From NCBI RefSeq assembly GCF_009741735.1, contig NZ_WHOH01000001.1, positions 1,178,001-1,242,000 of the forward strand: 64,000 nt of DNA. The letters are read 5' to 3'. The stretch comes from Lentibacillus sp. JNUCC-1. Its GTDB lineage: Bacteria > Bacillota > Bacilli > Bacillales > Amphibacillaceae. The notes under the pieces were generated by a model. That model was not told the origin of the DNA. It saw nothing but the letters and a program-made list of their open reading frames with translations, and searched no databases. Shown here piece after piece: positions 706 to 52,482 of this stretch. The number at the start of each line of letters is the position of its first letter. The first letter of the stretch is position 1. The translations under genes were made by a program, and so were the position numbers.

Positions 706-1517
706 TTATGCATTTAACTCAAAGAGCTTACGATAAGCTACTGGGGTTTTTCGATTTAATCTTGATTTGATTCTTAAATGATTGTAGTAATAAATATAGT
801 CTTCCAGTTCTTTTTTAAAGTGCTCAATGCTGTCAAATTCCTCTAAATACAGGAATTCATATTTTAGTATCCCAAAAAAGTTTTCTATGACGGCATTATC
901 ATAACAGTTCCCCTTGCGGGACATGCTTTGTGTAATGTTATGTTGCTCGAGCTTTTTCCGATATCGGGGATTCGATAATGCCAGCCCTGATCAGAATGAA
1001 TTAACAGTTCGTCGCTGTCCTTTTTGTGTTCCAAGGCTTGATCTAACATCTTTTCCACCAGATCGAACGTAGGCCTGTTTTGAAGTGTGTACGTAATGAT
1101 TTCCCCGTTGAACAGGTCCAATACAGGTGAAAGGTACAGTTTTTCGCCAAACAGCCTGAATTCCGTTACATCAGTAACCCATTTTAGATTCGGCTTTTCT
1201 GCTTTGAAGTTACGCTCAAGAACGTTTGGTGCTGCCTTGCCTGATGGGCCTTTATACGACTTGTATTTTTTCATTCGGACGACACAATGGATCCCGAGCT
1301 CTCTCATTAACCGAAGTACTTTTTTTTCATTTATTTCATGGCCTTTTTCTTTAAGGACATCTGTTATGCGACGGTAGCCAAGACGGCCTCTGTGTCGGTG
1401 ATAAATAAAATTAATTCTTCTTTTCCACTTGCGATCAGGGTCCGGTTGTTTTAAAAGATTGACGTTGTAGTAATAAGTGTTTCTTTTAATACCTGCAACC
1501 TTTACAAGCTTACTCAC
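706..1517 (-). pseudogene. IS3-family transposase ORFB (DDE integrase), frameshifted
   Basis: Catalytic rve-type transposase. The first fragment (885-1517) has the N-terminal HTH_21 region, then TDVTEF (first Asp) and HSDQG (second Asp). The second fragment (706-924) carries [12 protein letters not shown] (catalytic Glu) and the C-terminal YNHLRIK motif. The two parts are in different frames. Restoring one base in the GGGG run at 965-968 of the plus strand rejoins them as a continuous protein of about 270 residues with the expected [11 protein letters not shown] sequence. The frame is also open upstream of the GTG at 1517, so the functional product is probably an ORFAB fusion made by -1 slippage at A-AAG near the end of ORFA. 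It is either inactive or carries a sequencing indel. Confidence 0.85.
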
Positions 1518-1543
1518 CGGGAATTTATGCCTTAGTTCAAGTA

Positions 1544-2053
1544 TTACTTTTGTTTTGGTTTTGTTGGTGATTGGTCTTCTTGAACCAAGGCTCTCAACTT
1601 TTTTAAATAAGCATTCTCCATACGAAGGTATTCGAGCTCTTTTTCCATAGCTTCTATTGATTGATTCTCAGGTTCCTGCTTGTTCTTTTGAGTGCGAGAA
1701 TTCATAACAGAAGGCCCCTTTCTTGATTCAAGGGCATCTTCTCCACTTTTCTCCCACTTTTTCCTCCACCTTCGAACCATAGAAGGATCAGGTATATGGA
1801 AAATGGCAGATGCCTCTCGAATGGAATAATGCGTTTCATTAATGAATTCTATTACCTTTAGTTTAAAGGCTCTCGAATAGTTTGTATAGGGAAAATCAAA
1901 TGCCTTATCACCATGGTGTTGAAATAACAACACCCAATACCTAATCACAGATTCATCAATGTTGAGTTTATTTGCCAGGTCTCGGTAACTGAACTTTCCG
2001 CCCACATAGTCTTTAGCTATTTGTAACTTAAAAACTTTGGTAAACTTGGACAT
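1544..2053 (-). CDS. IS3-family transposase ORFA (helix-turn-helix protein)
   Basis: A protein of 169 residues with two helix-turn-helix segments (about residues 15-45 and 70-110, the second containing REASAIFHIPDPSMVRRWRKK). A C-terminal leucine-rich coiled coil follows (EAMEKELEYLRMENAYLKKL). This is the usual ORFA of the IS150 group, which binds the terminal repeats and, by frameshift fusion, delivers the ORFB catalytic domain. It ends in QSPTKPKQK just where the ORFB frame (TKVILELRHKF) becomes readable, so the arrangement for programmed -1 frameshifting is intact. The start codon lies about 50 bp inside the right end of the element. Confidence 0.88.
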   Translation of the reverse strand: MSKFTKVFKLQIAKDYVGGKFSYRDLANKLNIDESVIRYWVLLFQHHGDKAFDFPYTNYSRAFKLKVIEFINETHYSIREASAIFHIPDPSMVRRWRKKWEKSGEDALESRKGPSVMNSRTQKNKQEPENQSIEAMEKELEYLRMENAYLKKLRALVQEDQSPTKPKQK

Positions 2054-2146
2054 TTTTATACCTCCTAATGTTGGATATGGTGTCCAACATTAGGGGTGCA
2101 GCTCAACCACCGCTGCGGGGTCTTCGGACTCGTGCTGTTCCCGCAG

Positions 2147-2541
2147 TCAACCATGTATCGCGAAAAGCGCTATACACCACAAGGGGATGAAAATAGATGT
2201 AGGGTGGCGATACTAGTGCTACGGCTGGATGAGGAAGGTCGATACTCCTTGGTGCCTTAGAGCCCTACCCGCAGTCTGACTCCTTCGACCACGGCGCATC
2301 ACTTATTGTTGCTCCCATTCGGGAAGCACTCATGGTAGATTAACCCTATTCTGGTTGTTGCGCCAGCCTTAATAAATAATGGATGCCGTATGTCTTAGGA
2401 AGGAGATCAAGAACACATTATCTTACTAACCTAAATGCACCAATACAGCGACGCTCTCATCTTAGTTTTTTTTAAAAACATGAGCTGCGTCTACTTAAAT
2501 ATTGTCTTTTTGCGATTCTTAAGAGATTTAATTTTCATGGT
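2147..2541. repeat. 395-bp inserted sequence, copy A (structured, non-coding)
   Basis: The stretch from TCAACCATG to TTTCATGGT is inserted in the family-2 module between CCCGC-AG and AG-GAGTC, giving an apparent 2-bp AG duplication. A second copy of identical length occurs at 42101-42495 with only three substitutions seen by eye. It has no convincing ORF. Several complementary segments (GTAGGG with CCCTAC; GGCGCA with TGCGCC) suggest a folded RNA or a subterminal hairpin mobile element. The ends share only the short inverted motif ACCATG. Its nature is unknown; a non-autonomous relative of an IS110- or IS605-type element is conceivable but not shown. Confidence 0.6.
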
Positions 2542-2813
2542 AGGAGTCTTCATGTATTTTCTCCGCTTTACGTGTATATTTTGTAATGATTGTGGACGGG
2601 TAGCGATAGCGAATTACTCGATTAAAGAAGAATGGATTATACCTATCCAAGCTCGGGGAAAACACGGAGACTCCAGCGGGAGGATAAGCCTCGGTGAGAC
2701 CCCGGAGCGCGGTAGCGCGAGGAGGCTCAGCAGCGCCCGCGGAAAGCGCAGTGTTTTCCCCGAGCGGTTGACAGAGGCTGTCATAGCGCGTATATCCGTT
2801 CCGTAGTTTATCT

Positions 2814-2846
2814 AGACATGTGCTCTCTTGAGGCGCATGTCTTTTT
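2814..2846 (+). terminator. Rho-independent terminator, probably of the NupQ-like gene
   Basis: Stem AGACATGTGC / GCGCATGTCT with a 9-nt loop, followed by a run of five T on the plus strand. The only plus-strand gene upstream is the permease ending at 584. The terminator is thus displaced by the inserted element. Confidence 0.75.
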
Positions 2847-2963
2847 GTTAGGTTGGGGTGATACTTCGCTTGTCCCCTTCTCTTTTGAGTTTTGGAACGG
2901 GGAAAATAGGAAATGTGATATTGTAAAGGGGTACTGATCTTAATTGTAGAAGGAGTGTGTGTT

Positions 2964-3365
2964 ATGCCTTATTTATTTGTAGCGGCTGCGGCTGTTGCGG
3001 TTTTGACGATTACTGGTGTTTATAAAGTTTTGATTGATAAGCTGAAGCTTAAGCCGGAAAATGCGCAAAAGCTTCAAACGCAATTCTTCATAGGCGTGGC
3101 CGTAGCTGAAGTGATCCCAATTGTTCTTATTATTTTGGGTTTCAACCAATTGGAGAGTGTTGGCAGCGTTTCCGAGCTTTATTTGCCCGGGGCGATTGTG
3201 GTTATCCTTATGCTGTTTGCGGTTGTGTTCATGTTTTTACAGCGGGCTGTCGGTGTGAATGAGGAATCCCGAACAGCGGTCACGCTAATGACCATGATCG
3301 GCATTGCGCTCGTTATGGCGATTCCCATCATCTCGATAGTGGGTCTGCTGCTCTTGTTGCCGTAA
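2964..3365 (+). CDS. Four-helix membrane protein resembling a tandem ATP synthase subunit c
   Basis: A hydrophobic protein of 133 residues. The ATG at 2964 is preferred over the in-frame GTG at 2955 because an AAGGAG ribosome site (2950-2954) overlaps the latter. Four membrane helices are visible. After helix 1 comes a polar loop (KPENAQKLQTQ) and then FFIGVAVAEVIPIVLIILGF. This mirrors the AtpE of this window ([11 protein letters not shown], then [19 protein letters not shown]), including the ion-binding Glu. The last helix (MTMIGIALVMAIPIISIVGL) repeats the pattern with Met in place of Glu. The glycine-rich first helix of AtpE is missing. I do not recognise a named family; a role in ion translocation is only an idea. 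Confidence 0.75.
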   Translation: MPYLFVAAAAVAVLTITGVYKVLIDKLKLKPENAQKLQTQFFIGVAVAEVIPIVLIILGFNQLESVGSVSELYLPGAIVVILMLFAVVFMFLQRAVGVNEESRTAVTLMTMIGIALVMAIPIISIVGLLLLLP

Positions 3366-3443
3366 TTTCAAACTTCTGCATGCCACTCTCTTTCTGAACA
3401 TACATTTTACAGATAGGAAATGTTTTTCAGAGGGGGATGCTGG

Positions 3444-3872
3444 ATGCAGTTTTATTATGGGCAACAAATGCCGCTCAGGGTTTTGGATGAGACGGAGTTT
3501 TGGAAAATGCAGGAGGCCGAACACACGACTGTCATGATTGAGCTTTTGCCTGATCTCGAGCAGCACTATGTGGAGGCATTGAAAGAATGGGGAGAAGCAC
3601 TCACGACGACCCATCAGCATGTGAAACGCTTTGTGGAGTCGGTAATCAGAAGCAATCCCGAGCTGCCGCCGCAACTGTATCAGCAAGTGTTGCAATTGGT
3701 GTCGTTCAGTTTGAAGGAGAGCATGGCGTTTATTGAACTTTGTCGGAAGTTAAAGAAGGAAAGCCAGGCTGTTGTTGGGAATCACACGGCTCAAGTTGTC
3801 ATTGATCATATCGTTGATGAATCAGAGTATTTCATCGGCATCGCCCAAACGATCTTGTATCAGAAAAATTGA
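3444..3872 (+). CDS. DUF2935 (hemerythrin-like four-helix) protein
   Basis: A soluble protein of 142 residues starting at the ATG at 3444, which follows the strong site GAGGGGG at 3431-3436. The sequence is helical and contains WKMQEAEHTTVMIELLPDLE near the N-terminus and NHTAQVVIDHIVDESEYFI near the C-terminus. This pattern of Glu/His residues is typical of DUF2935 proteins of spore formers, whose fold is four-helical and may bind metal. These usually occur as tandem domains of about 250 residues, so this is a single-domain version. It stands alone between the subunit-c-like protein and the ThrE-type exporter. Function unknown. Confidence 0.75.
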   Translation: MQFYYGQQMPLRVLDETEFWKMQEAEHTTVMIELLPDLEQHYVEALKEWGEALTTTHQHVKRFVESVIRSNPELPPQLYQQVLQLVSFSLKESMAFIELCRKLKKESQAVVGNHTAQVVIDHIVDESEYFIGIAQTILYQKN

Positions 3873-3905
3873 ACCCCTCCCCGCCCGCTGATGGGCTCAG
3901 TTCTG

Positions 3906-3934
3906 CTGTCATTTTTTCCAAAATCCGCTATAAT
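3906..3934 (+). promoter_or_regulatory. Possible SigA promoter of the ThrE-type operon
   Basis: TATAAT at 3929-3934 lies 28 nt before the start codon at 3962. A weak -35 box CTGTCA lies 17 bp upstream of it (3906-3911). The -10 is perfect but the -35 is poor. Confidence 0.5.
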
Positions 3935-3961
3935 ACAGTTAAAGCGAAAGCAGGTGAGGAT

Positions 3962-4705
3962 ATGGCAGATCAGGATAAAATCATACGTGTGTGTATGCTG
4001 GCGGGAAAAGTCATGCTTGAAAGCGGGGCTGAGACATACCGAGTGGAAGATACGATGAATCGCATGGCACGGACAGCAGGACTTGAAGGTGCGGAAAGTT
4101 ATGCTGCTCCGACTGCGATTCATTTTTCCGTACGACGATCGGCGCCGGCGCATTTTATGCGGATTTCCGAACGGTCTACTGATCTGCATAAAATTGCTGA
4201 TGTAAATGAGATCTCCCGGCGGTATTCAGACGGTGATCTCACTTTGGACGAGGTCTTTAAAAGGCTCATTGAGGTTGATCATACATATAATCTGTTCCCT
4301 TGGTGGCTTCAGGTGGTGGCAGCGCTGCTTGTAAGCGGCGCATTTGCCATTATGTTTGGCGGGGCGGCGGGTGATTTTATGCCAGCATGTCTAACGGGTG
4401 GCGTTGCTTATGCCGCTATGCTTGGTGTGAATCACATTGTTCGCATGCGGTTTGTGGCAGACTTTTTTGCTTCGGTTGTGATCGGTGCTCTGGCTGTCTT
4501 GTTTTTATCGATTGGTTTCGGTGTTTCATTGGAAAAAGTCATCATAGGTGCAGTGATGCCGCTCGTACCTGGGCTTCATATTACAAATGCTGTCCGAGAT
4601 TTGCTGGCCGGCCACCTCGTTGCAGGTGTGTCTAAGGGCATGGAAGCTGTGCTGACGGCGTTTGCGATTGGCGCGGGTGTTGCGGTTGCAATTGCTTTTG
4701 TATAG
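3962..4705 (+). CDS. Threonine/serine exporter family protein, ThrE N-terminal type (DUF1212)
   Basis: A protein of 247 residues starting at the ATG at 3962, with AGGTGAGG as ribosome site. The cytosolic N-terminal part contains the family signature around LESGAETYRVEDTM. The C-terminal part has about five hydrophobic helices (from LFPWWLQVVAALLVSG onward) and the conserved PLVPGLHITNAVRDL. In two-gene systems this larger subunit works with a small DUF3815 subunit. That subunit follows here at once (4721), with a ribosome site 4 nt after the stop. Export of threonine or serine is known for the Corynebacterium homologue ThrE; the substrate here is not proven. Confidence 0.88.
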   Translation: MADQDKIIRVCMLAGKVMLESGAETYRVEDTMNRMARTAGLEGAESYAAPTAIHFSVRRSAPAHFMRISERSTDLHKIADVNEISRRYSDGDLTLDEVFKRLIEVDHTYNLFPWWLQVVAALLVSGAFAIMFGGAAGDFMPACLTGGVAYAAMLGVNHIVRMRFVADFFASVVIGALAVLFLSIGFGVSLEKVIIGAVMPLVPGLHITNAVRDLLAGHLVAGVSKGMEAVLTAFAIGAGVAVAIAFV

Positions 4706-4720
4706 ATGGGAGGGTTTTGG

Positions 4721-5233
4721 ATGGACATTATTGTGCAGATGGTGACGAGTTTTGTTGCTGCGGCTGGTTTTGGAATATTGTTTAACGCGCCTCGGGGCAA
4801 AATTGCGACGTGCGGGCTTGTTGGCATGGCTGGGTGGATGCTATACGACGGGCTTGTGTTTCAGGGACTCGAATTGATGCCGGCAACGGTGATCGCAGCA
4901 GTCCTTGTTGGGGTATTAAGCCGATTCGCCGCAAAATGGCACAAGACACCGGTTATTATTTTTAACGTTTCCGGCATCATCCCGCTCGTGCCGGGTGGGG
5001 TTGCCTATGATGCAATGCGCCACTTTGTAGAAGCAGACTATCTCAGCGGTGTCCAACTTTCCGTCCAAGTCATGCTCCTCGCAGGTGGTATTGCCATGGG
5101 CCTCATGTTCTCTGAAGTTGCTTCACAAATCACCAGAAAAATTCAGCCCGCTGAACCACAGCGGGGCTACGTCTTCTCACTTATGCGCGGTTTTCGGCTT
5201 CGATTTTTTTGCTGCCAAGAATTAGGTAGTTGA
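4721..5233 (+). CDS. Threonine/serine exporter family small subunit (DUF3815), C-terminus extended by likely indel
   Basis: The second subunit of the ThrE-type exporter. The start is the ATG at 4721 behind GGGAGG. Four to five hydrophobic helices and the motif NVSGIIPLVPGGVAYDAM are visible. As written the frame runs to 5233 and overlaps the convergent permease gene by 53 bp, through a terminator hairpin. If one C is restored in the CCC run at 5147-5149, the protein ends at TGA (5152-5154) after KIQPR, with 144 residues. The same correction makes the terminator stem perfect. The correct end is therefore very probably 5154. Confidence 0.85.
   Translation: MDIIVQMVTSFVAAAGFGILFNAPRGKIATCGLVGMAGWMLYDGLVFQGLELMPATVIAAVLVGVLSRFAAKWHKTPVIIFNVSGIIPLVPGGVAYDAMRHFVEADYLSGVQLSVQVMLLAGGIAMGLMFSEVASQITRKIQPAEPQRGYVFSLMRGFRLRFFCCQELGS
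5145..5168 (-). terminator. Terminator of the APC permease gene, stem lacking one C
   Basis: AGCCCGCTG (5145-5153) faces CAGCGGGGCT (5159-5168). The right arm requires AGCCCCGCTG, so the left arm is one C short. On the minus strand the hairpin is followed by GAATTTTTC. It lies between the two convergent genes. Confidence 0.75.
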
Positions 5234-6640
5234 GTTCTTCTTTTGGAATGCTGTTAAATTCTGTGCGCTTGATCAGGTAAAAGACCAAACCAAGTACAAC
5301 CCAGACGACGAGTGCAATCCTGGACTCGACGCCAAGTGCTGCAGGCGATCCTGGAATGAGCAGCAGTCCGAGAAATGTCACGCCTGCCAGCATCCCGAGG
5401 CCGGCGATGGTCTTTTTAACAGGGGCCACGACGTGTTTTTTCGAATTAAAATCGGCTTCTTTTTTCCACTTGAACAAAGTGAACGCTGTATAGCATGTGT
5501 AAAAATACGCAATGGTGACACCGATCGAGGACATGTCAACGACCCATAGCAACGCCTCTCGTCCAAACCATGGTGCGAACATGGACAAGATAACGGTAAA
5601 TACGATTCCGACATACGGTGCTTTAGATTTGGGATGCAATTTTTCAAACGCTGCTGGCAGGATCTTCGCACGTGACATGGCGAACAACAAACGGCTTGAG
5701 GAAATAATAAATCCGTTCAAACCTGTAAAGATTCCCATGGTCAACGCGACAACAAGCAACCCAAGTCCCAGTGGGCCAAGCAAGTCTTTAATCGCAGCCC
5801 CTGCACCCCATACAGTATTTGCCTCGACAAGACCTTCCCACGGTGCAATCATGGATACGGCAAAAATCATCAGACTGTATAGCACGCCAGCTGCAAGGAT
5901 CGCCATAATAATCAATGTAAAAGCTTTTTTGGACGAAAAGTGAAACTCTTCAGCGGCCTGGGGGATGTTGTCAAATCCGACAAACGCCCACGGTGCAATT
6001 GCCACGATCGACACAATCGCTGCAATGGATCCCGTATTTTCAGGGAAAAGTGGTACCATATTAGCGACGCTCGCATCCGGATTCACCCCAACAAGCGTGG
6101 TAATGACGAGCACACTTGCCACCATCACCAAGCAAAAGATAAACTGCATGCGACCGGAAAGACCTGTTCCTTTTATGTTTAAATAACCAGACGCAACCAA
6201 GACGGCCGAGGCGATCAAGATTTCCATTAAGTGGACATCCCAACCGGCAACCGTATAAAGATGAATATTTTCCACAAAGGCTGGAAAAATGAATTTAAAC
6301 ATAAGCGCAAAGGCTGATGCGTTCAAAGCAACGATACATATGTACCCAAGCGTGAGAAACCAGCCGCAAATAAAAGCATGAACACGACCGAGCGAGATAA
6401 ATGCATAAGCAAATTCCCCGCCTGATACGGGGAAGCTTTTAATGAGAAATCCGTAACTGACCGCAATGAGCATCATGAGCAATGCCCCGATTCCAAAGCC
6501 AATCATGACACCAAGAGGACCCGCCTCACTCATCCAGTTGGTCGGCTGTACAAACGCCCCCATCCAATAGATGATCCTAGCGCGATCGCCCAGACCCATC
6601 TGGGCTTCAGTGTCTTTTCCAATGTTGTCCGCTCTTCCAT
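5181..6640 (-). CDS. APC-family amino acid permease (frameshift near N-terminus)
   Basis: An amino acid-polyamine-organocation permease with 12 or so hydrophobic helices; it probably takes up an amino acid or amine by ion symport. The start is the ATG at 6640 behind AAAGGAG. This frame reads LKPRWVWAIALGSSIGWG, the usual first helix of the family, but leaves the main frame at a C5 run (6557-6561). The rest continues in another frame with GAFVQPTNWM. Adding one C gives an uninterrupted protein of 486 residues. The longest uninterrupted frame (5181-6692) has an unrelated N-terminus that should not be used. The substrate cannot be told from the sequence. Confidence 0.85.
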
Positions 6641-6778
6641 TGTGTATCTCCTTTAACAATTGTGACAGGATATGTAATTTAACATATCTCACTATTCCCC
6701 AATCTCATCATCTCAAACATGTTTAAGAGGAAAAGTTATCACAAAAGGCCACCTTTTATGGATGGACCGCACACATGG

Positions 6779-7995
6779 TTATCCGGAAAAGTCATCTGAA
6801 ACGACGCGATTACGTCCGGCCCCAAGTCCTACCACCCAAGTTAGAAGCGTCATGAACATTAAAATCAGAAGTGCCGCAGACCAATTTCCAGTCGCATCAA
6901 TGACATAGCCCATAAGGATTGGTCCAGTTGCAGCAAGGAAATACCCAATCGCCTGGGCCATACCTGAAAGCTCGGCTGCTTGTTTAGCGGTATAAGCACG
7001 AAGCCCCAGAAATGTGAGAGCCAATGGGAATAGACCGCCGAGCGCAACGCCGATCAACAGAACACTGATGACCATCATCGTGTAACTGTCACCATAAAAA
7101 AGCCCACCTAAACCTATGAACGACAATACGCAAAGAATGCTCACTATCAAGCGCTGAGATGCCATTTTTCCAGCAAGAATTGGCACAATAAGACCGATGG
7201 GCAGCCCCACAAATTGATTTACCGACAGCATCCAGCCTGCTTCACTGCTGGTCACCCCGTAATCTCTGAGCATTTCAGGGAGCCACGTGATAATGACATT
7301 GTACACAAAAGCCTGCATGCCCATAAAAACAGCGACCTGCCAAGCAAGCCTCGAACGCCACATACGCATATCACTGGCATAAACAAATTCCATCCGGACT
7401 TTGTTAGCGGAGGTCCGGTGTCTGACAAAATAAATCCACATAAGGGCTGCAATAATTGCCGGAATAGCCCAGACTGCTAATGCCGCCTGCCAGCCATATG
7501 CCGAGTGCTCCGCAATAGGAATGCTAAGTCCCGAGGCCAAGGCAGCACTCAGGCTCATGGACGTTGCATAGATACTCGTCATAAGCGTCTCCCGTTTAGG
7601 AAAACGTTCTTTTATAATGCCGGGCAACAAAACATTGGATACAGCGATCCCAATTCCGATCATCAAGGTTCCGCCAAACAGCAGGACGGGATGGGCAATG
7701 GTACGTATCACAATCCCAAGTGCAAGCAACACCATGCCCCTATAAGCGCCCCTTCGTTGGTGTATTTAATGCCTAGTTTCGGTGCGACTGGAGACATAAT
7801 AGCAAACGCAAACAGCGGAAGGCTCGTTAAAATTCCAATGCTCCAGTTCGGCAGGGTGAGCGTCTCTCGGATCATGCCGATCACAGGGCCAACGGAAGTA
7901 ATCGCAGCACGCAGGTTAAATGCCACCATAATGATACTGGCAATCAGCAGGAATTGATTATAGCTTTTCAGCTGTTCGTATTTGTATTTTTGCAC
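6779..7995 (-). CDS. MFS transporter, CynX/NimT (YycB)-like, frameshifted
   Basis: Two frames together make a 12-helix major facilitator protein. The upstream part (7708-7995) contains FNLRAAITSVGPVIGMI and LLTSLPLFAF-type sequence, the signature of the CynX/NimT/YycB branch. The downstream part (6779-7735) supplies the remaining ten helices. One C missing from the C4 run at 7737-7740 explains the break; corrected length is 405 residues. The start is the GTG at 7995, 7 nt after GAGGAGG. Relatives export or import cyanate, nitroimidazoles or other small anions. The substrate here is unknown. No partner genes are adjacent. Confidence 0.82.
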
Positions 7996-8225
7996 AAAGC
8001 ATCCTCCTCTTGCTGAGTCAGCTTGCGGTCTGTCATACAGCAGTATTGATTGAAATTCACGGTCTAAAAAACGCCTGATCCAAATAGGCCAGACGTTACG
8101 GTACATTGTTCATTATAGCACATGCACGTGTCTTGATGTGCCCAATCCGCAAATGGATATACTTGTATTTGACCTTCTCTTTTAAGTTCGTTATCTGAAA
8201 AATAGTGCATTTGCAGGTAATTCAA

Positions 8226-8902
8226 TTAAACTGCGAACCATGAAAACTTGAATCTAACTTTATCTAGAAGGATCCTCACTTACTTAATGAGAATGGCAAC
8301 CAACAATCACAATGAGTGAATCGTGATTTGCGCTACGGGAAGTCGCTTTAACTTTATCACAGCTCAAGTGCGACATCTGCTCAAGAAAACCACTTTCACA
8401 GTGTCTTCTAGCCGCGAGCACGGCCTCAGCCTCCTTGCCCCGGCAAGGGGTATGTCGACGTTGCCCGCAAAGGGCGGTTTTAGTCGACCCTCCCTAATGT
8501 AACGCTGTGGGGTCTTCGGACTCGTGCTGTTCCCGCAGGAGTCGACTTCCCTTCGCTCCAATCACTTTATGTTAGTCAGTGGCTCGGACGGTTCGTTACA
8601 CAATTGCGTGTGAACTAATTTCACTATCACACGCAGCCCCGTTCTAAATACATGTGATTTTCATCCTTGTTTTTTGATTGAGTAATCACATCAAGTTTTA
8701 CGTGCTCAGTTATAAAAGTATAAACAATTCTTTCACCGATCTCCGGGAAAACACGGAGACTCCTATGGGAGCAAAAGCCTAGATGAGACCCCACAGCGCG
8801 CAGCGCGAGGAGGCTCATCAGCGCCCATGGAAAGCGCAGTGTTTTCCCGGAGATCGGTGGGGCGAGGCAGTCATAACATACTCCCTTATGTCGCACTTTA
8901 CG
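8226..8902. repeat. Composite MITE-like element, copy 2
   Basis: Fills most of the 900-bp gap between the MFS and RND genes. The left end has AAACTGCGAAC (8228-8238) followed by ATGAAAACTTGAAT. The family-2 module runs about 8330-8560. It contains an insertion at 8347-8410 and a second at about 8449-8505 (TATGTCGACGTTGCCCGCAA), both also found in copy 4. The family-1 module is at 8746-8860, with near-perfect inverted ends TCTCCGGGAAAACACGGAGA. The right end is degenerate. I see no gene in it. Confidence 0.75.
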
Positions 8903-8957
8903 GATTCCACATCTTAATCAATGGTCACTGCCCAAAATATAACACTGTAAAACGTAG

Positions 8958-9003
8958 AAAATCCGAACCGTGATCCATAGCAGTATGGATTGGTTCGGAT
9001 TTT
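8958..9003 (-). terminator. Terminator of the RND efflux operon
   Basis: Stem AAAATCCGAACC / GGTTCGGATTTT with a 22-nt partly paired loop, 13 nt after the stop of the RND gene on the minus strand. A short T-run forms part of the 3' arm. Confidence 0.75.
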
Positions 9004-9016
9004 CTTCATTCATATC

Positions 9017-16416: not shown

Positions 16417-16802
16417 CTACTTTTCCTTTTCTACAATATCGATAATATGCTGCCATGTTTCCCTGTCAAATATCTCTTTAAAAGAGCCATCACCAAGAAC
16501 ACTGTACCCAATTCCAAGTCCTAAAATCAGCGCAGCAACCGCCAGCACCAAAACAATAATCAAACGGAGCCAGATCGGCAATAGACGTCTTTTCACGCGC
16601 TTGCCTTTTTCTTTTCCGCCTTCTTTTTCTGTTTATGTTCTTCGCGTGCAGAAGGTTTGGCTTTCTCTTTCTGCTTCTGTTTGGTCACCGTTCTTTTGCC
16701 TTTTTCCAGGTCAACCGAAGAGGTGCGCTTGGGTTGCTTGGCACTTTCGGTTTCTGATGTCTGATTGGTTGTTGTTTCGGTAGAATTTGTTTGGGTTGCC
16801 AT
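16417..16802 (-). CDS. EpuA-like small membrane protein ('RNA polymerase subunit beta' family), frameshifted
   Basis: The first part (16593-16802) is a Thr/Lys-rich cytosolic tail of about 65 residues with many KEK/KKK repeats. As written it stops at 16593. Restoring one C at 16611 (plus strand) joins it to VKRRLLPIWLRLIIVLVL and a membrane helix. A short outside domain follows (GDGSFKEIFDRETWQHIIDI), ending at 16417. This is the EpuA family (Pfam DNA_rpol_b), which sits beside fabZ and flhP in many Bacillaceae. Corrected length is 128 residues. The family name is historical; a polymerase role is not established. The C-terminal half was missed by simple ORF calling. Confidence 0.75.
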
Positions 16803-18582: not shown

Positions 18583-19583
18583 TTAAACGATGCTTTTGCG
18601 TTCAATCTTATCGATGTTTTCCAGCATGATGCCCGTTCCTTTGGCCACACAGTTCATCGGTTCTTCGGCTAATAAAACAGGAACTTTGAGCTCGTCCGCC
18701 AGCAGTTGATCAATGCCGTGAATCAAAGCGCCGCCCCTGTCAAAATGACGCCTCGATCAATGATATCAGCAGACAGTTCAGGCGGTGTCTGTTCCAGAAC
18801 AGTTTTAGCACCCTGGGTGATCAGCGAAACTGGTTCACGCAGCGCTTCTTCAATTTCATCAGAGTGAACCGAGATCGTACGCGGCAGTCCTGACACCAGG
18901 TCACGCCCACGGATGTCCATCGTTTCATGCCTTCCACCCGGATAGACGGTAGCGACATTAATCTTAATGTCTTCAGCCGTGCGCTCCCCGATCAGAAGTT
19001 TATATTTGCGTTTTATGTACTGCAGGATTTCTACGTCAAATTTGTCCCCGGCCATTTTAACCGACTGAGCCGTGACGATGTCTCCCATGGAGAGGACAGC
19101 CACATCTGTCGTGCCGCCGCCAATGTCCACAACCATATTTCCGCTTGGCTGGTAAATCTCCATTCCAGCACCAACCGCCGCAACTTTCGGCTCTTCTTCC
19201 AAGTAAATCTTCTTGCCGCCGGATTTTTCCGCTGCTTCTTTAATCGCTTTTTGCTCGACTTTGGTAATGTTGGTCGGGCAGCAAATCAGCATACGCGGTT
19301 TGGACAGAAATCCGCGGACATTTATTTTACTGATAAAATGTTTCAGCATTGCTTCTGTAATGTCAAAATCAGCAATGACGCCGTCTTTCAGCGGACGAAC
19401 CGCTTCAATATTGCCTGGGGTACGACCGACCATCTGGCGCGCCGCCTCTCCCACTTCAAGCACTTTTCCTGTATTGCGATTCATTGCAACGACTGCCGGC
19501 TCATTTAAAATGATCCCTTTGCCCTTCACGTGAATGAGCACGTTAGCCGTACCAAGGTCAATTCCGATATCCCTAGAAAACAT
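18583..19583 (-). CDS. mbl: Rod-shape determining protein Mbl (MreB-like actin), frameshifted near the C-terminus
   Basis: Bacterial actin that guides cell-wall elongation. The start is the ATG at 19583 (MFSRDIGIDLGTANVLIHV) behind AGGAGG; a longer upstream start is not supported. ATP-binding motifs are DLGTAN and GNMVVDIGGGTTDVAVLS. The frame breaks after VILTGAAL at a C4 run (18734-18737). With one C added it continues IHGIDQLLADELKVPVLLAEE to the stop at 18583, giving 333 residues, the exact length I recall for B. subtilis Mbl. It lies downstream of spoIIID, as in Bacillus. A real loss of the last 46 residues would be unexpected. Confidence 0.93.
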
Positions 19584-19757
19584 ACGTTGGTGAACCTCCT
19601 GAAATTTATATTTGAACAACGTTTCGTACATACTGCCTCTAATGAACTATTTTACCACAAAATTCAACGCATAACTGCATACTTCGCAAAAATATTATGG
19701 ATTATTTTCGTTCCCTTAGTATATCTCTTCCTGACGTCTCCATACAGTCGTGCACAC

Positions 19758-31276: not shown

Positions 31277-32601
31277 CTACATTTCAGCAGTAATTTGGTT
31301 CTCGGATAGTTTCATCTCGACGTAGGTTTCAACAACATCCCCATTCTCATCAACGCGCTCAATGTCTGCTCCAAGTTTGGCCAGTTTTCCGGCAAAGTTC
31401 ACATAACCACGGTCTAGATGGTGCAGATCTGTTACACGTGTTAAGCCTTCAGCCCGCAAACCGGCAAGAATCAAAGCAGCTGCAGCTCTTAAGTCAGTAG
31501 CTGCGACTTCTGCGCCTTGGAGTTCTCTTGGACCTTCAATAATGACACTTCTGCCTTCGATTTTCATCTGAGCGTTCATGCGTCTGAATTCTTCCACATG
31601 CATAAAACGATTTTCAAAAACCGTTTCAGTGATCACACTTGTACCTTCTGCACATAGCATGAGTGCCATCATTTGTGATTGCATGTCAGTCGGAAACCCA
31701 GGATGCGGCAAAGTCTTAATGTCAGTTGCTTTAATGTGCTCAGGACCAATAACGCGCAGTCCATCCTTTTCATCAAGGATCTGAACATCCATTTCTTCCA
31801 GTTTTGAAATAACCGAACGCAGATGCTCTCTCTCAACGTTTTCAATTAATACATTTCCGTTCGTGATCGCCGCTGCTACCATAAATGTGCCGGCTTCAAC
31901 ACGGTCAGGAATGATCGAATGTTCCACACCATTCAACTGGTCAACGCCATCTATTTTGATAGTTTCCGTGCCTGCACCAACAATTTTAGCACCCATTTTA
32001 TTTAATATATTGGCTAGATCTACAATTTCAGGTTCTTTGGCGCAATTTTCCAAAATAGTGCGACCTTCAGCTAATGCTGCAGCCATCATAATGTTTTCTG
32101 TTGCACCCACGCTTGGCATATCCAAATAAATTTTGGCGCCCTGCAATCGTTTGTTTACATGCGCTTCTACAAATCCGTTCCCAACATGGACAGTGGCCCC
32201 ATTGCTTCGAACCCTTTCAAATGGAGGTCAATTGGTCTAGAACCAATTGCACAGCCGCCTGGCATAGCTACTTTTGCATGGCCGTAACGCGCGAGCAGTG
32301 GTCCAAGTACCAACACTGAAGCGCGCATTTTCCGGACAAATTCGAACGGTGCTTCTGTTTTGAGTTTGTGTGTTGCATCAACGGTGATCGTATGGTCATT
32401 AAATTGTACGTCAGCATTTAAATTGCGGATGACTTCGTTGATTGTGTAAACATCAGCCAAATCAGGAACATCTTTAATAACACTCTTTCCTTGGCTCGGA
32501 AGAATACTCGCGGCAATGACCGGAAGCACTGCATTTTTGGCGCCTTCAACTCTCACAGTGCCGCTCAGCTGCCTTCCACCTCTTACGATGATTTTATCCA
32601 T
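31277..32601 (-). CDS. murAA: UDP-N-acetylglucosamine 1-carboxyvinyltransferase MurAA, frameshifted
   Basis: First committed step of peptidoglycan synthesis: enolpyruvyl transfer from PEP to UDP-GlcNAc. The start is the ATG at 32601 ([20 protein letters not shown]). The first fragment (to 32167) includes the loop [15 protein letters not shown] with the PEP-binding Cys. The frame then breaks at a C4 run (32197-32200). Adding one C restores [20 protein letters not shown] and joins the second fragment (31277-32146); corrected length is 441 residues. This paralogue is essential in B. subtilis, so the break is probably an assembly error. It follows ywmB by 36 bp, as in Bacillus. Confidence 0.93.
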
Positions 32602-32637
32602 ATTTAAATTCTCCTTCAAATGCAATTTCACTATATA

Positions 32638-34936: not shown

Positions 34937-36360
<1,424 letters not shown>

Positions 36361-42745: not shown

Positions 42746-42797
42746 ATAAACTAAGTCTTAATAAATAACAGCTGTCTAAATGAAGACGGTTTAATAT

Positions 42798-42843
42798 AAA
42801 AAGCCAAAAGGGGCTTTATTCGATCCATTCCTTTTGGCTTTTT
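42798..42843 (-). terminator. Terminator of the Vpr-like protease gene
   Basis: Stem AAAAAGCCAAAAGG / CCTTTTGGCTTTTT around an 18-nt loop; T-rich tail on the minus strand. Confidence 0.88.
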
Positions 42844-42850
42844 ACTTTTT

Positions 42851-45094: not shown

Positions 45095-45175
45095 ATGCTA
45101 CCCTCCCTTTTCAGATAGATGTAGTATTTGAAAATGAGAGCGATAATATGTAAGGATTTTGATCGTTTTGTAATG

Positions 45176-45212
45176 AAAAAGACCTGATACGCACGTGGTA
45201 ACAGGTCTTTTT
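45176..45212 (-). terminator. Terminator of mnaA
   Basis: Stem AAAAAGACCTG / CAGGTCTTTTT, symmetrical, so it may act in both directions. It lies 9 bp past the stop. Confidence 0.88.
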
Positions 45213-45220
45213 CTATGGAT

Positions 45221-46344
45221 TTATTGGTTGGCAAAATAGGACTTGATGGCATCGGCGATACGTGCGGATGCTTGCCCATCACCGTACGGGTTTGCTGCTT
45301 TAGCCATTTTTTTATATTCAAGGCCATCTGTCAGCAGCTCGTCCGCCAGATTAAAGATTGTATCTTCATCAGTGCCGGCCAGTTTCAAGGTGCCTGCTGC
45401 AATGCCTTCCGGACGTTCTGTCGTATCACGCAGCACAAGCACTGGTACACCAAGTGAAGGCGCCTCTTCCTGCACCCCGCCGGAATCGGTCAGAATCAAG
45501 TGGGCCCTGCTGGCGAAATTGTGGAAATCCACCACGCTGAGGGGGCGATCAATTGAATGCGGTCATCTTTACCCAGTATTTCGTCTGCAGTCTGTCGGAC
45601 CATAGGGTTTAAATGGACCGGGTAGATCACATGAATATCCTTATGCGTCTCTACCAACCGCTTGATCGCCCGAAACATCTGCTGCATGTTGGCGCCAAGG
45701 TTTTCTCTGCGATGAGCCGTCATGAGAACAAGACGTTTGTCCTCTATCGCATCGAGAATAGGACTATTGTAATCATCCTTCACCGTTGTTTTCAGGGCAT
45801 CGATAGCCGTGTTGCCTGTAACAACAATCGTTTCAGGATCTTTGTTTTCTTCAAGCAAATTCTCTTTGGCTTGCTCTGTCGGAGAAAAATGCAAGTCTGC
45901 CATCACACCTGTAAGTTGACGATTCATTTCCTCAGGGTATGGACTGTATTTATTCCACGTGCGGAGCCCTGCTTCAACGTGTCCAATCGCGATCTGATTG
46001 TAATAGGCGGCAAGGGACGCAGCAAAAGTTGTGCTCGTATCCCCGTGCACAAGTACGATATCCGGCTGTGCCTCTTTCATCACTGTGTCCAGACCTTCCA
46101 GCGCCCTCGTTGTGATCTGGGCAAGGGTCTGCTTGTCCTTCATAATATTGAGATCATAATCTGGCTGAATGTCAAAAATACCGAGGACCTGGTCAAGCAT
46201 TTCCCGGTGCTGGGCCGTCACAGTTACGATGGACTCAAATTGATCAGGGCGTTTGTTCAATTCTAGAACAAGCGGCGCCATTTTAATCGCTTCAGGCCGC
46301 GTCCCAAAGATTGACATCACTTTAATGCGTTTTTCCATTATCAT
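45221..46344 (-). CDS. mnaA: UDP-N-acetylglucosamine 2-epimerase (non-hydrolysing), frameshifted
   Basis: Interconverts UDP-GlcNAc and UDP-ManNAc for teichoic acid linkage units. The start is the ATG at 46344 with GGAG 5 nt before. Fragment 1 has VMSIFGTRPEAIKMAPLVLEL, VHGDTSTTFAASLAAYY, GHVEAGLRTWNKYSPYPEE and TAHRRENLG. Fragment 2 (45221-45535) has ILTDSGGVQEEAPSLGVPVL. One G missing from the G5 run at 45541-45545 breaks the frame; corrected, it reads LIAPLSVVDFHNFAS with 374 residues in total. It follows upp by 42 bp, the Bacillus order. Confidence 0.93.
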
Positions 46345-46386
46345 GTACACTCCATTACGTCATATTTTCCTATGTCGCATGTGCTT

Positions 46387-47016
46387 TTATTTGGTGCCGA
46401 ACAATCTGTCACCAGCGTCACCAAGACCTGGAATAATGTAGCCTTTTTCATCGAGCTTCTCATCTAGTGCTCCCAGGTAAATGTCAACATCAGGATGTTC
46501 TTTTTTGATGACTTCCACACCTTCAGGAGCAGCAATCAGGCACATCAGGCGAATATGTTGAGCGCCGCGCTTTTTCAGAGAATGAATAGCGTCGTTGGCA
46601 GAGCCTCCGGTGGCGAGCATTGGATCAATGACGATGAGCTCACGGTCTTGAATATCGGACGGCATCTTAAAATAGTATTCGTGCGGCTGCAATGTTTCCG
46701 GATCACGGTACAATCCCACATGGCCAACACGCGCTGCCGGAATCAGTTTACGAACACCATCAACCATACCGAGTCCTGCTCTCAGGATCGGAACAAGACC
46801 AATTTTCTTTCCGGCCAGAACTTTGGCTTGGGTTTCCATAACAGGGGTCTCAATCGTTTTTTCCTGGATAGGCAGGTTGCGCGTAATTTCAAAAGCCATC
46901 AGCATTGCCACTTCATCGACCAGCTCACGAAATTCTTTTGTTCCAGTATTTTTATCACGAATATACGTCAATTTATGTTGGATCAGCGGGTGGTCCAGTA
47001 CGTGTACATGTCCCAT
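46387..47016 (-). CDS. upp: Uracil phosphoribosyltransferase
   Basis: Salvages uracil with PRPP to UMP. 209 residues, full length: [40 protein letters not shown], the PRPP loop [16 protein letters not shown] and the C-terminal [13 protein letters not shown]. Upstream lie array 2 and the glyA terminator. Confidence 0.97.
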
Positions 47017-47170
47017 CGTTCAACACTCCCATATTTTTTATTTGCATCCTGTAAATTGTACAGAAAAAAGGCTTTTGATTCAACCGATTACCCGGAATGT
47101 TTGTCAGCGAGTCGGGGTGTATTGAGGTAAACACGGGAGCGGCTGGGATATGCGCCCTTGTTTGGGGATT

Positions 47171-47449
47171 TGCACATTCATTTTCGGATATGCACATTCA
47201 ATTCCGGATTTGCACATTCAATCCCGGATATGCACATTCATTCCCAGATATGCACATTCGTTCTCGGATTTGCACATTCAATCCCGAATATGCACATTCA
47301 ATCCCGAATATGCACATTCAATCCCGGATATGCACATTCATTCCCAGATATGCACATTCAGCCGCGGTTTTGCACATTCAATCCCAGATATGCACATTCA
47401 GCCGCGGATTTGCACATTCAATCCCAGATATGCACATTCAGCCCCACCA
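47171..47449. repeat. 20-bp-phased TGCACATTC array 2 (14 units)
   Basis: TGCACATTC occurs at 47171 and then every 20 bp to 47431, 14 positions, all exact. Spacers are variants of AATCCCGGATA, ATTCCCAGATA and AGCCGCGGATT. It lies between the glyA terminator and upp. Its open frames (HSIPDMHIHSQICTF-like) are a by-product of the period. Confidence 0.95.
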
Positions 47450-47453
47450 CACC

Positions 47454-47486
47454 GAAAAAAGACATCCGACCCCGGATGTCTTTTCT
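47454..47486 (-). terminator. Terminator of glyA
   Basis: Stem AAAAGACATCCG / CGGATGTCTTTT with a 4-nt loop; T-tail on the minus strand. Confidence 0.9.
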
Positions 47487-47492
47487 CCTTCA

Positions 47493-48726
47493 TTATGCGT
47501 ACAGTACGAACTTGCCGGTAAGGGCATCGACTCTTGACCGGGAAGTTTCGAGCTGTTGCTTGTCCTCATGGTTTTTGAGTGTATCAGCAATGATGCTGGC
47601 GATTTCTTTCATATCTTCTGTTCCAAAGCCGCGTGTTGTGACAGCTGCCGTGCCAATTCTGACACCACTTGTGACAAAAGGACTTTCCGTGTCAAACGGG
47701 ATGGTGTTTTTGTTCGTTGTGATCCCGATATCGTCTAAAACTTCCTCGGCGATTTTACCAGTCAAATTGAGCGGTTTGACGTCCATTAACAGCAAATGGT
47801 TGTCTGTTCCACCTGAAACGACGCGAAGGCCTTCTTCCTGCAGTGCTTCTGCCAAGGCTTTAGCGTTGTCAACAATGTGCTGGGCATATGTCTTGAACTC
47901 GTCTGACAGAGCCTCTTTAAAAGAAACAGCCTTCGCAGCAATCACGTGCATAAGAGGGCCGCCCTGCATGCCCGGGAATACAGATTTATCGATCTTTTTG
48001 GCATCGTCTGCTTTACATAGAATCATCCCCCGCGTGGTCCACGGAGCGTTTTATGTGTGGTTGTGGTCACAAAGTCTGCATATGGAACCGGATTCTGATG
48101 CAAACCAGCGGCCACAAGACCGGCAATATGGGCCATGTCCACCATGAGATATGCGCCAACTTCATCGGCGATCTCGCGGAACTTTGCAAAGTCTATTTCA
48201 CGTGAATAGGCGCTTGCCCCTGTTACGATCATTTTCGGCTTGACCTCTTTTGCTTTTTGCAAAACATGGTCATAATCAAGTTGCTCTGTCTTTTCTTCCA
48301 CACCATAATCAACAAAGTTATAAAGTTTACCACTGAAATTGACTGGGCTTCCGTGGGTTAAATGACCCCGTGACTCAGATTCATGCCAAGTACTGTATCC
48401 CCGGGTTCAAGAAACGCTTGGTAAACCGCCATGTTCGCCTGAGCACCAGAGTGGGGCTGAACGTTGGCATGTTCTGCGCCGAAAAGGGCTTTTGCACGGT
48501 CACGCGCCAGATTTTCCACGATGTCAACGTATTCACAGCCGCCGTAATAGCGGCGACCTGGATAACCTTCAGCATATTTGTTCGTTAATACAGAACCCAT
48601 TGCTTCCATAACAGCTACTGATACAAAATTTTCTGAGGCGATCAGTTCGATCTTATCCTGCTGGCGTTTTTTCTCCTTGTTGATGGCTTCAAACACTTCA
48701 TTGTCTGCTTGTTGTAAATGTTTCAT
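47493..48726 (-). CDS. glyA: Serine hydroxymethyltransferase, two frameshifts
   Basis: PLP enzyme converting serine and tetrahydrofolate to glycine and methylene-THF. The start is the ATG at 48726 ([15 protein letters not shown]) behind GGGAGG. Three fragments (48358-48726, 48023-48301, 47493-48026) are joined by adding one C at the C4 run 48366-48369 (restoring [21 protein letters not shown]) and one at the C5 run 48027-48031 (restoring [14 protein letters not shown]). The PLP Lys is in [14 protein letters not shown]. Corrected length is 411 residues, normal for the family. Confidence 0.94.
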
Positions 48727-48793
48727 ATGTAAACCTCCCAAATAGATTAAGTGATGCCAAAAGAAATCCCCTTAACAGGGGACCGTCAAAGCA

Positions 48794-49354
48794 TTAAGAT
48801 TCCTTTGACGGGTATTGGGCGCGAGCGCCGCCAATCAGTTTCGGCCGGGTTACCGCAAATGATGCGCGTGCATCACCGACAGTATCTTGTCCAAATCTGA
48901 GCGGAACAGCCACGTGCTTTAGATGCATCCCGATCATGGTTTCTCCAATATCAAGACCAGCATCTGCTTTAATGGATTCCACCAGAACAGGATCTTCCAT
49001 CTTGCTAAAGGCACAGGCTGCCATTGAGCCGCCTGCGTTTGGGACAGGAACTGCAGTGACTTCAGTGAGTTCGAGATCGAGCATGGTATCACGTTCGACA
49101 ACAAGAGCCCGATTCAAATGTTCACAGCACTGAAAAGCCAGTCGCAAGTCTTTTCGGTCAACAAGCTTGGAAACGGCTTTATAAATGGTATCTGCTACTT
49201 CTTCACTTCCCGCTGAACCAATGGCTTTTCCGGTAATTTCACTTGTGGAGCAGCCAATCACAAACACGTCATCTTCTCTGAGTTTCTCTTCTCTCAGCCA
49301 ATTAGACACAATCACATCAATATCCTGTTCAATCTTTTGCATATCTGCAGTCAT
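48794..49354 (-). CDS. ywlG: YwlG family protein (TIGR01440, UPF0340)
   Basis: A cytosolic protein of 186 residues matching the YwlG family: VFVIGCSTSEITGKAIGSAGS, FQCCEHLNRALVVER and VPNAGGSMAACAFSKM. Its place between rpiB and glyA is conserved in Bacilli. The biochemical function is not known to me. It begins 15 bp after rpiB, and a small CCCCTTAACAGGGG hairpin separates it from glyA. Confidence 0.9.
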   Translation of the reverse strand: MTADMQKIEQDIDVIVSNWLREEKLREDDVFVIGCSTSEITGKAIGSAGSEEVADTIYKAVSKLVDRKDLRLAFQCCEHLNRALVVERDTMLDLELTEVTAVPVPNAGGSMAACAFSKMEDPVLVESIKADAGLDIGETMIGMHLKHVAVPLRFGQDTVGDARASFAVTRPKLIGGARAQYPSKES

Positions 49355-49369
49355 TAAAGCACATCCTTT

Positions 49370-49816
49370 TTAAAGATTTTTGCTCTCATATGCATCAATT
49401 TTACCTACACGGTTCTGATGGCGCCCGCCTTCAAATTCTGTTTCCAGAAATGCTTTGGCGACCTCTCTAGCCAGCCCTGGGCCAACGACACGCTCGCCCA
49501 TTGCAAGGACATTGGCATTGTTATGCTGTCGTGTGGCTTTAGCACTGAAGACATCGTGGGTCAGGGCACAGCGAATGCCTTTAACCTTATTGGCAGAAAT
49601 GGACATGCCTATGCCTGTGCCGCAGATAAAGATGCCCCGGTCAAACTCTCCTGAAGCAACACGTTCTGCAGCTGGCAGGGCATAATCCGGATAATCCACG
49701 GATGTGCCGCAATCACAGCCGGCATCTTCATATGAAATATTCATTTCATCAAGCAACCCTTTTATCTCTTTGCGAAGTTCAACACCGGCGTGATCAGATG
49801 TTAAAAGGACTTTCAT
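49370..49816 (-). CDS. rpiB: Ribose 5-phosphate isomerase B
   Basis: A protein of 148 residues of the RpiB/LacAB family: MKVLLTSDHAGVELRKEIKG, CGTSVDYPDYALPAAERV, ICGTGIGMSISANKVKGIRCAL (active-site Cys) and a C-terminal His/Arg region. Interconverts ribose and ribulose 5-phosphate. Confidence 0.94.
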   Translation of the reverse strand: MKVLLTSDHAGVELRKEIKGLLDEMNISYEDAGCDCGTSVDYPDYALPAAERVASGEFDRGIFICGTGIGMSISANKVKGIRCALTHDVFSAKATRQHNNANVLAMGERVVGPGLAREVAKAFLETEFEGGRHQNRVGKIDAYESKNL

Positions 49817-49857
49817 TTAAAACAGCTCCTTTAGTAAGGTATGGTGTCTATCTCTCA

Positions 49858-51150
49858 TTATCGAACTTTAAAGACGGATATATGCTTTTTCAGGCTTTGC
49901 GATTGCTTTTCCAGCTCTTGTGCCAGATGATCGAGCGATTCAATTGTACTGGACTGTTCATAAACAGCTGCATTGACTTCTTCGGCCCCGGCGGAGGTCT
50001 CTTCCGCTACAGCAGCTACTTCTTGCGATTGGGCTGCCGTTGTCTGGATGGACTGCAACTGCTTGTCCAAAAGCCCCGTCATTTCATCAATATCATTCGC
50101 CACTTCCAGAACTGAATTGGACATACTTTCGATTGCTTCATTTGTCTCTTGGCCATTTGCCGCCTCTCGTTTGGCATAAGAGACATTTTGATTGATTTGC
50201 TCAACAACGTGAAGGACATTCCCCTGCATAGCCGATATAAGATGTGTGATCTCGTTAACCGCATGGGCACTTTGATCGGCCAGCTTGCGGATCTCTTCTG
50301 CCACAACCGCAAACCCTTTACCATGTTCACCGGCACGGGCTGCTTCAATCGAGGCATTTAATGCAAGCAAATTTGTTTGTTCGGCAATATCGCCCACCAT
50401 GGAAATGATCGATTCAACACGTCCAGTATGCTCTTTCAGCTGATTGACATCATTGAGAGAGGCTGTCTGATCAGCTGCCAGCGCCTGAATGCCTTCTACT
50501 AATTGATGTACCACAAATTGGCTTCTGTTAAGCGTTTCAAGCATTGCCTGCGATTTTTCCTTAGAGTCGCTCGCTTTGTTCTGAACCGTTTCAGCGAGGT
50601 CAGTCGCTTGTTCCACAGCAGCAACTGTTCCTTGGATCGCTTCAGACGAACTTTCGGCACCTTTTGAAATGTCATCAATAGAAGCACTGATTTGCTGTGT
50701 GTGCTGTGACACCGTATGTGAAGCTGTCTTGATTTTAACAACTGTTTCATTGGTGTGCTCAAAATGGTTTTCGATGTTATGCACCATTGTTTTCAGATTG
50801 GCAAGCATCGAATCAAATGCAACAGTGAGCGCCCCGATTTCATCGTCTGATGCATGGATATCAACCGTTTGGTTTAAATCCCCTTCCGCTGCGTTGGTCG
50901 CCACACGCTCCAGTTTCTCAAGCGGTCTTGTTATAAAACCTGCTGCCAGGTAAGCCAGTAGCCCGGACCAGAAAACACCGCCCAAAAGAATCAAAATCGA
51001 GTACAACTCAAACGAAACCGCCCAATATTCTTTGATATAGTCATAAAGCACATACATGAATAAAGCACTTGTGGAATACGTAATCACAGCCAAAATGGTT
51101 GTAAACATCATCAACTTCAACCGCAGCCCGGCCCGATATCTTTTTCTCAT
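49858..51150 (-). CDS. Methyl-accepting chemotaxis protein without an external sensor domain
   Basis: A protein of 430 residues. Two membrane helices (about 14-34 and 44-68) are joined by only about ten residues, so there is no extracellular ligand domain. HAMP follows ([20 protein letters not shown]) and then the signalling domain. The hairpin tip of the latter is [45 protein letters not shown]. It probably senses an intramembrane or cytosolic cue and signals to CheA/CheW. It begins 19 bp after the ywlE stop and may be cotranscribed with it; this gene is not part of the B. subtilis order. Confidence 0.92.
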
Positions 51151-51169
51151 AAAGCTTCCCCCGTTTTAC

Positions 51170-51787
51170 CTACTGATCTGCTTGATGCTGAATTTTTTTC
51201 ATAAGATGGTCCATGCAGGCGTCAAGCTCGTTCAAGGTATGTTCATAAACAGATATATCTCCGCCAAAAGGATCTGAAATGTCATAACTGATTAAAGTCA
51301 TTTCCAGCTTTTCAATCGCTGTCATTTCCGCCTTGAACCTTTCGCGCAAAGCTTTATCCAGCTCAACCATGCTCATGTTCTGACCATGCTCGCGAACGAA
51401 CAACGCCCGCTTTGTCTCAAGATCAGCATAGCGTTCTCTTAATTCTTCCCATACTTTATTATCGGCCGAAGATACGTATTCTTTTAGCGTGAAAAATTTC
51501 TCCTGATAAGCCGGATAATCAGTCATAAGATTTTGTTTGTGGCCGGTGGTCATGCTGAGCACCACATCAGCCCAATTCAACAGCTTATCATCTACGGGCT
51601 GTGTTTGATGATCCAGTGTGATCCCCCGCTCCGCCAGTGCTTGAATAGCCTGTGGATTAGCAGGTTCATTTTTACCGGCAAAAATACCTGCTGACCGGAC
51701 TGCTGTGTCTGGGTATTTTTGTTTAAGAAGGGCCTCGGCCATGGGGCTGCGGCATGTGTTTCCCGTACAAACAAACAAAATGTTCAT
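51170..51787 (-). CDS. ywlE: Low-molecular-weight protein arginine phosphatase YwlE with helical insertion
   Basis: A protein of 205 residues from the ATG at 51787 behind GGGGG. The N-terminal P-loop VCTGNTCRSPMAEALL holds the nucleophile Cys7, Arg13 and Thr11, the residue tied to phospho-arginine specificity. The general-acid motif DPFGG is near residue 165. B. subtilis YwlE has about 150 residues. Here about 65 residues (SADNKVWEELRERYADLETK ... IEKLEMTLISYD), charged and helical, are inserted between FTLKEYV and ISDPFGG. The enzyme reverses McsB arginine phosphorylation. The role of the insert is unknown. Confidence 0.9.
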   Translation of the reverse strand: MNILFVCTGNTCRSPMAEALLKQKYPDTAVRSAGIFAGKNEPANPQAIQALAERGITLDHQTQPVDDKLLNWADVVLSMTTGHKQNLMTDYPAYQEKFFTLKEYVSSADNKVWEELRERYADLETKRALFVREHGQNMSMVELDKALRERFKAEMTAIEKLEMTLISYDISDPFGGDISVYEHTLNELDACMDHLMKKIQHQADQ

Positions 51788-51903
51788 CATTGATCCCCCA
51801 CACTCTTGGTCATAACTTTTTCTATACGTCATGTTCGTTTCTATTATCAATATATCATACATACATCACTGAAGGCACAAAAAGTCACTCACATTTATTC
51901 CAC

Positions 51904-51936
51904 AAAAAAACCTCATGCCTACACATGAAGTTTTTG
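51904..51936 (-). terminator. Terminator of mntP
   Basis: AAACCTCATG / CATGAAGTTTTT with a 6-nt loop; T-run on the minus strand, 5 bp after the stop. Confidence 0.75.
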
Positions 51937-51940
51937 ATCT

Positions 51941-52482
51941 TTAACCAAAAATAAAATACAATCCGAATGCACACAGAATACTTCCGCCGAGCATTTCGCT
52001 GTAAACCCCAAGAACGCTCCGTGCTTTTCTCCCCAACAGCAGACCGCTTAAAGTTAATCCCATACTGACAAAGCCGAACATAACGATGGCCATAACTGTT
52101 TGAAATCCGGTAATGCCGAGGCTGAGCCCAACGGAGAAACTATCCAGACTCACACTGAAAGCCATTAGTATCAGCCCTGCTCCAGCCGGGGCCACAAGCG
52201 GAGTTGCTTGATAATTAAATGCAGAGAAAAACATTTGCGCGCCAATTGCAAATAGCAAAAGCCCCCTGCAAGTGCAGCAATCTGATCAATCTGACCAGAC
52301 AAAACATGGCCCGCCGCAATGCCCGCAGCCGGCATCATCACGTGGAACGCGCCCACTGTTAAACTGATCAGGGCAATACGTTTGAGTCTGAGACGCTGCA
52401 TCCCCATGCCAAGACTAACGGAAAAAGCATCCATCCCCAAGGCAAGCGCCATAAATAATAGTGACATCCATTCTGCCGTCAT
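51941..52482 (-). CDS. mntP: Manganese efflux pump MntP (YwlD-like), frameshifted
   Basis: A six-helix manganese exporter. Fragment 1 (from 52482) has the duplicated family motif ALALGMDAFSVSLGMGM; fragment 2 (51941-52258) has the second copy AFSVSLDSFSVGLSLGI. One C missing from the C5 run at 52262-52266 separates them. Corrected, it reads ALAGGLLLFAIGAQMFF with 180 residues in all, the family length. It lies between ywlC and ywlE as in Bacillus. Confidence 0.9.

Follow-up and report, generated by a model that had tools for sequence, protein, structure and literature searches.

Frame breaks at G/C runs in the assembly of Lentibacillus sp. JNUCC-1 are very probably residual consensus errors

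Genes on both large contigs of the deposited genome of Lentibacillus sp. JNUCC-1 are broken by frame changes that go in one direction, coincide with runs of G or C and become more frequent as the run becomes longer. The frame breaks are present in the deposited sequence. We consider it very probable indeed that they are residual consensus errors of an assembly made from PacBio reads alone. Judging from the sequence, the broken genes are almost certainly not real in the cell, which most likely carries intact copies. The window analysed here is a stretch of 64,000 nucleotides (G000:C1:1178001-1242000) of a 3,687,469-base genome in three contigs. The strain (KCTC 43912) is salt-loving. It comes from fermented anchovy sauce, and its contigs measure 2,174,790, 25,650 and 1,487,029 bp (total 3,687,469 bp; PMC7380530). 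The genome was sequenced on a PacBio Sequel with 2.0 chemistry, with no short reads described, and assembled with HGAP2 in SMRT Analysis 2.3.0 together with Circlator, at a reported depth of 224.6-fold (PMC7380530). It is thus an assembly from uncorrected long reads (PacBio only, HGAP2; PMC7380530), the material in which an artefact of this kind would be expected.

The original prediction placed twelve single-base G/C deletions in genes of the window. At ten of these sites the gene is one base short of its homologues and a G/C run of at least three lies at the break; all ten are in genes on the reverse strand. Within an insertion sequence (IS), the transposase with rve domains (706..1517, identified by Pfam and by other IS copies) changes frame at about 965: Pfam finds rve in the ORF at 888-1517 and rve_2/rve_3, which are different integrase-core families, in the ORF at 709-924, and the G run at 965 is one base longer in all three other long copies of the IS in the same genome. 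The amino acid permease of the APC family (5181..6640) is broken near 6556, since its 486-residue homologue in G001, a genome of the same genus and our main comparison, aligns to 6640-6536 in one frame and to 6560-5187 in another. For the MFS transporter (6779..7995), 14 ORFs of relatives from 9 sources each match as two pieces in different frames, and the break lies within 7711-7761, an interval that holds two GGGG runs. The open frame of this gene is 400-457 aa long in eight relatives (matches of at least 45% identity, with one stop codon counted in two of the eight), against 328 aa here.

The gene mbl (MreB/Mbl; 18586..19631) is in two frames with a break at 18728-18736. Its corrected product had been put at exactly 333 residues, and the Mbl of G001 is indeed 333 aa long in one frame; this agreement carries little weight by itself, as does the claim that the corrected gene lengths are all multiples of three. 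Elsewhere in the genome, another gene of the MreB family likewise lies in two adjacent fragments (G000:C3:254462-255372; L003, L004). Pieces of murAA (EPSP_synthase family; 31280..32634, break 32187-32200), mnaA (UDP-GlcNAc 2-epimerase; 45233..46356, break 45540-45550), glyA (SHMT; 47499..48726, three pieces with breaks at 48008-48035 and 48362-48372) and mntP (51944..52473, break 52228-52264) match successive parts of one Pfam family each; murAA, mnaA and mntP are each in two frames. The gene atpD (34940..36348, break 35266-35284) is also in two frames: every one of the 40 other genomes searched has a best match with an open frame of 469-512 aa, compared with 361 aa here. Similarly, among the best 120 MnaA homologues out of 8000 sequences scored, the 119 others are 336-405 aa long, whereas the strain's own entry has 282 aa; no full-length MnaA of the same species is among those 120, in which identity to other entries reaches 86% at most.

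The picture is different at the other two sites. The EpuA-like gene (16423..16802, reverse strand) does change frame, within about 16593-16632: the G001 homologue is 135 aa long, and the 3' piece matches PF11772. However, A5 runs occur twice in this interval and its G/C runs do not exceed two bases, so that the frame change is real while its assignment to a G/C deletion at 16611 is not upheld. The break claimed at 5147 in a gene then called DUF3815 is not established. The 175-aa ORF (4706..5233, forward strand) carries a complete ThrE_2 domain (PF12821; earlier DUF3815) at residues 10-137, covering Pfam positions 1-128 of 129, and 5147 lies behind it. In the eight relatives shown, the protein stops soon after the domain, with short ends that are unlike one another, and an A5 run lies close to 5147.

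A count of split genes across the genome had been proposed, and we carried it out on a sample, comparing ORFs from 660 kb of G001 with 604 kb of the JNUCC-1 genome. Matches in more than one frame were found for 41 of 355 matched genes. Two short, dubious ORFs of 97 and 67 aa, for which the fit came out as -1 twice and as -2 plus +1, were removed, leaving 39 of 353 genes (11%, about one in nine) broken by 42 frame changes. Breaks in the first or last stretch of a gene, where the piece is too short for a separate match, are missed by this comparison. Both large contigs are hit: the 424 kb sampled on one hold 29 frame changes, and the 180 kb sampled on the other hold 13. In a frame-aware fit whose choices did not include a two-base insertion, all 42 changes were net -1 and none was +1. 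An anchor-based estimate gave exactly one base in 37 of the 42; the other five (22, 10, 7, 4 and -2) equal one base modulo 3 and are -1 in the frame-aware fit. When the comparison was reversed, 8 of 403 JNUCC-1 ORFs matched G001 in more than one frame, none of them a clear break in G001: one reflects a break in JNUCC-1 itself, two result from extended starts, one runs antisense to a gene, and the remaining four do not exceed 96 aa. Among these four, an ORF of 65 aa, 74-75% identical on both sides, stays a possible break in G001.

The 42 breaks share a clear signature. Their intervals contain a G/C run of at least three in 42 of 42 cases, of at least four in 29 and of at least five in 12, against 21.7%, 5.4% and 0.9%, respectively, for random intervals of equal lengths within coding matches. 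Taking the true run length as the observed length plus one, the broken fraction rises from 10 of 880 runs of four (1.1%) to 17 of 168 runs of five (10.1%) and 10 of 26 runs of six (38.5%), with 1 of 3 runs of seven also broken. Four of the 42 intervals, which were set apart from these G/C rates, hold an A/T run of 6-7 (2.9% expected by the same null for runs of at least six), so that A/T deletions may be among them. With the A/T run taken as the site, 2 of 110 A/T runs of seven and 2 of 17 of eight would be broken. Long A/T runs are probably hit too. The statement that none of the breaks is an A/T indel agrees with the ten clear window sites, but because of these four intervals it cannot be extended to the genome. 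A preference for G on the coding strand, considered at one stage, was dropped: the G:C ratio at the breaks (31:11) equals the background across all G/C runs of at least four (748:291), with no strand effect. The overall length spectrum of G/C runs does not settle the matter: for every run of five there are 0.12 runs of six here, 0.20 in G001 and 0.10 in five named relatives.

Among 286 genes of at least 150 aa, the thirds of lowest, middle and highest conservation have 0.107, 0.151 and 0.122 breaks per kb, and broken and whole genes do not differ in identity (p = 0.79). Conserved genes are not avoided by the breaks, and we see no trace of selection. Ordinary pseudogenisation in JNUCC-1 would fit the dispensable classes to which some of the broken genes belong (IS, MFS, APC), but it predicts an enrichment in poorly conserved genes that is absent, and it would hardly yield 42 of 42 frame changes of -1 (a count of frame changes alone). 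It would also have to include essential genes. The original prediction described several of the genes as essential or near-essential in Bacillus. JNUCC-1 belongs to Lentibacillus rather than to Bacillus. In Bacilli, murAA, glyA and mnaA are essential or nearly so, and real lesions in them would be expected to be lethal or severe. We give pseudogenisation hardly any probability.

The chief biological rival is a mutator: a strain deficient in mutL would have lost bases by slippage in G/C runs, and the deletions would then be real. As assembled, mutL is split, with pieces at C3:1347183-1347581 and 1345966-1347213 (G000:C3:1345966-1347581; L230, L231). In bacteria that lack mismatch repair, slippage likewise becomes more frequent in longer runs, a feature that mutator genomes would thus have in common with JNUCC-1. 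Mutator genomes are, however, expected to show gains as well as losses and to spare essential genes. In JNUCC-1 there is no +1 among the 42 changes, murAA, glyA and mnaA are broken, and conserved genes are broken as often as others; neither base gains nor an avoidance of conserved genes is seen. Furthermore, mutS is intact. The mutL break carries the same signature as the other breaks, and for this reason it is more likely to be one more assembly error. A mutator is therefore a very unlikely explanation, albeit the most serious of the biological ones.

Real breaks might alternatively be tolerated if ribosomal or transcriptional slippage at the runs restored the frame. In agreement with this, neither side of the break is relaxed in the broken genes, whose first and last pieces do not differ in identity (p = 0.33). 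On the other hand, the same genes are open in one frame in relatives, and runs of 3-5 G/C are not, to our knowledge, highly slippery. One-base G/C deletions also occur in 16S and 23S rRNA, where recoding would be useless; the lesions are thus neither confined to coding sequence nor kept in relatives. Slippage of this type falls well below the mutator in probability. Combining the two, a mutL-deficient hypermutator with hundreds of -1 slips, including in essential genes, that survives by frequent ribosomal or transcriptional slippage, is just as improbable.

Across the six 16S (L163, L166, L169, L172, L174, L177) and six 23S copies (L184, L187, L190, L193, L196, L199) of JNUCC-1, the one-base G/C deletions are copy-specific. 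There are three one-base indel columns with five short copies, and each column falls in a G/C run. One of the six 16S copies is short in a C run. In 23S, one of six copies is short in a run of six G, and three of six are short where six C follow one another; a copy with a T inside this C run is complete. Control genomes also show single-base columns. In G014 there are two among the seven 16S copies and one among the seven 23S copies. In G007, a single-contig relative, the seven 16S copies show no such column, whereas the 23S copies, of which six out of seven were compared, show two, each in a G run; its copies L195 and L198 each lack one G in a G run. In view of these G007 copies, the rRNA evidence is supportive and not unique to the JNUCC-1 assembly. 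As a separate observation, three of the seven 16S copies of G014 (L175, L178 and L180) reach 1702-1703 bases through an insertion, well over 100 bases in length, that is absent from the other four. No tRNA genes were found in the window and 27 other JNUCC-1 stretches, which left no second RNA test. In practice, a 16S or 23S sequence taken from one copy of this assembly can be one base off.

Near-identical IS copies provide a parallel comparison within the genome. Two one-base G/C deletions occur among four copies: besides the window copy, one of the three other long copies lacks a base where four C are expected. A substitution and an additional base at the edge further distinguish the fourth copy. 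The deletions are therefore independent of coding, as an artefact would have it, although G007 is similar in its rRNA. The IS itself, at window positions 700-2100, consists of the rve transposase and a separate helix-turn-helix ORF and has three further near-identical long copies (matches L202-L205). One of these (L204) begins at query base 93, and query bases 1-100 match about 1.6 kb upstream (L205), as if this copy were interrupted.

Consensus errors would account for these observations together. The consensus would drop one base from G/C runs of a true length of 4-6, and probably from the longest A/T runs as well, with a frequency that grows sharply as the runs lengthen; each undercall inside a gene would then shift the frame and split the gene. 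Breaks at runs far above chance, deletions only and a rate that increases with run length are what such an artefact predicts. The earlier proposal of systematic homopolymer undercalling is borne out by this combination of one direction, targeting of G/C runs, run-length dependence, hits in rRNA and IS copies and a PacBio-only source. Against an artefact, mutL is itself split, and the 224.6-fold depth should remove random errors. The depth forces the explanation towards a systematic consensus bias, which would be the cause rather than thin coverage. A plausible source of such a bias is a consensus model not matched to the Sequel 2.0 chemistry. SMRT Analysis 2.3.0 is presumably older than the Sequel.

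The aligned coding sequence amounts to 335 kb, and from 42 frame changes within it, a fair guess is that a few hundred such splits occur genome-wide. Statements on missing genes, numbers of pseudogenes, completeness scores and rRNA comparisons that use a single copy are unreliable as a result when they derive from the JNUCC-1 assembly.

Among titles and the openings of abstracts, we found no description of this G/C bias for Sequel data assembled with HGAP2. Its general form is nevertheless that of other long-read-only bacterial assemblies, whose errors are "most commonly homopolymer-length errors" (PMC8812927). A nanopore assembly likewise shows deletions with runs of 2-8, most of them after 4-5 identical bases (PMC12007338). 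The platforms differ, JNUCC-1 having been sequenced on a PacBio Sequel and the Kastor profile being one of nanopore reads (PMC12007338). As a further difference, G/C runs of 4-6 dominate in JNUCC-1, whereas A/T runs of 7-8 are rarely hit.
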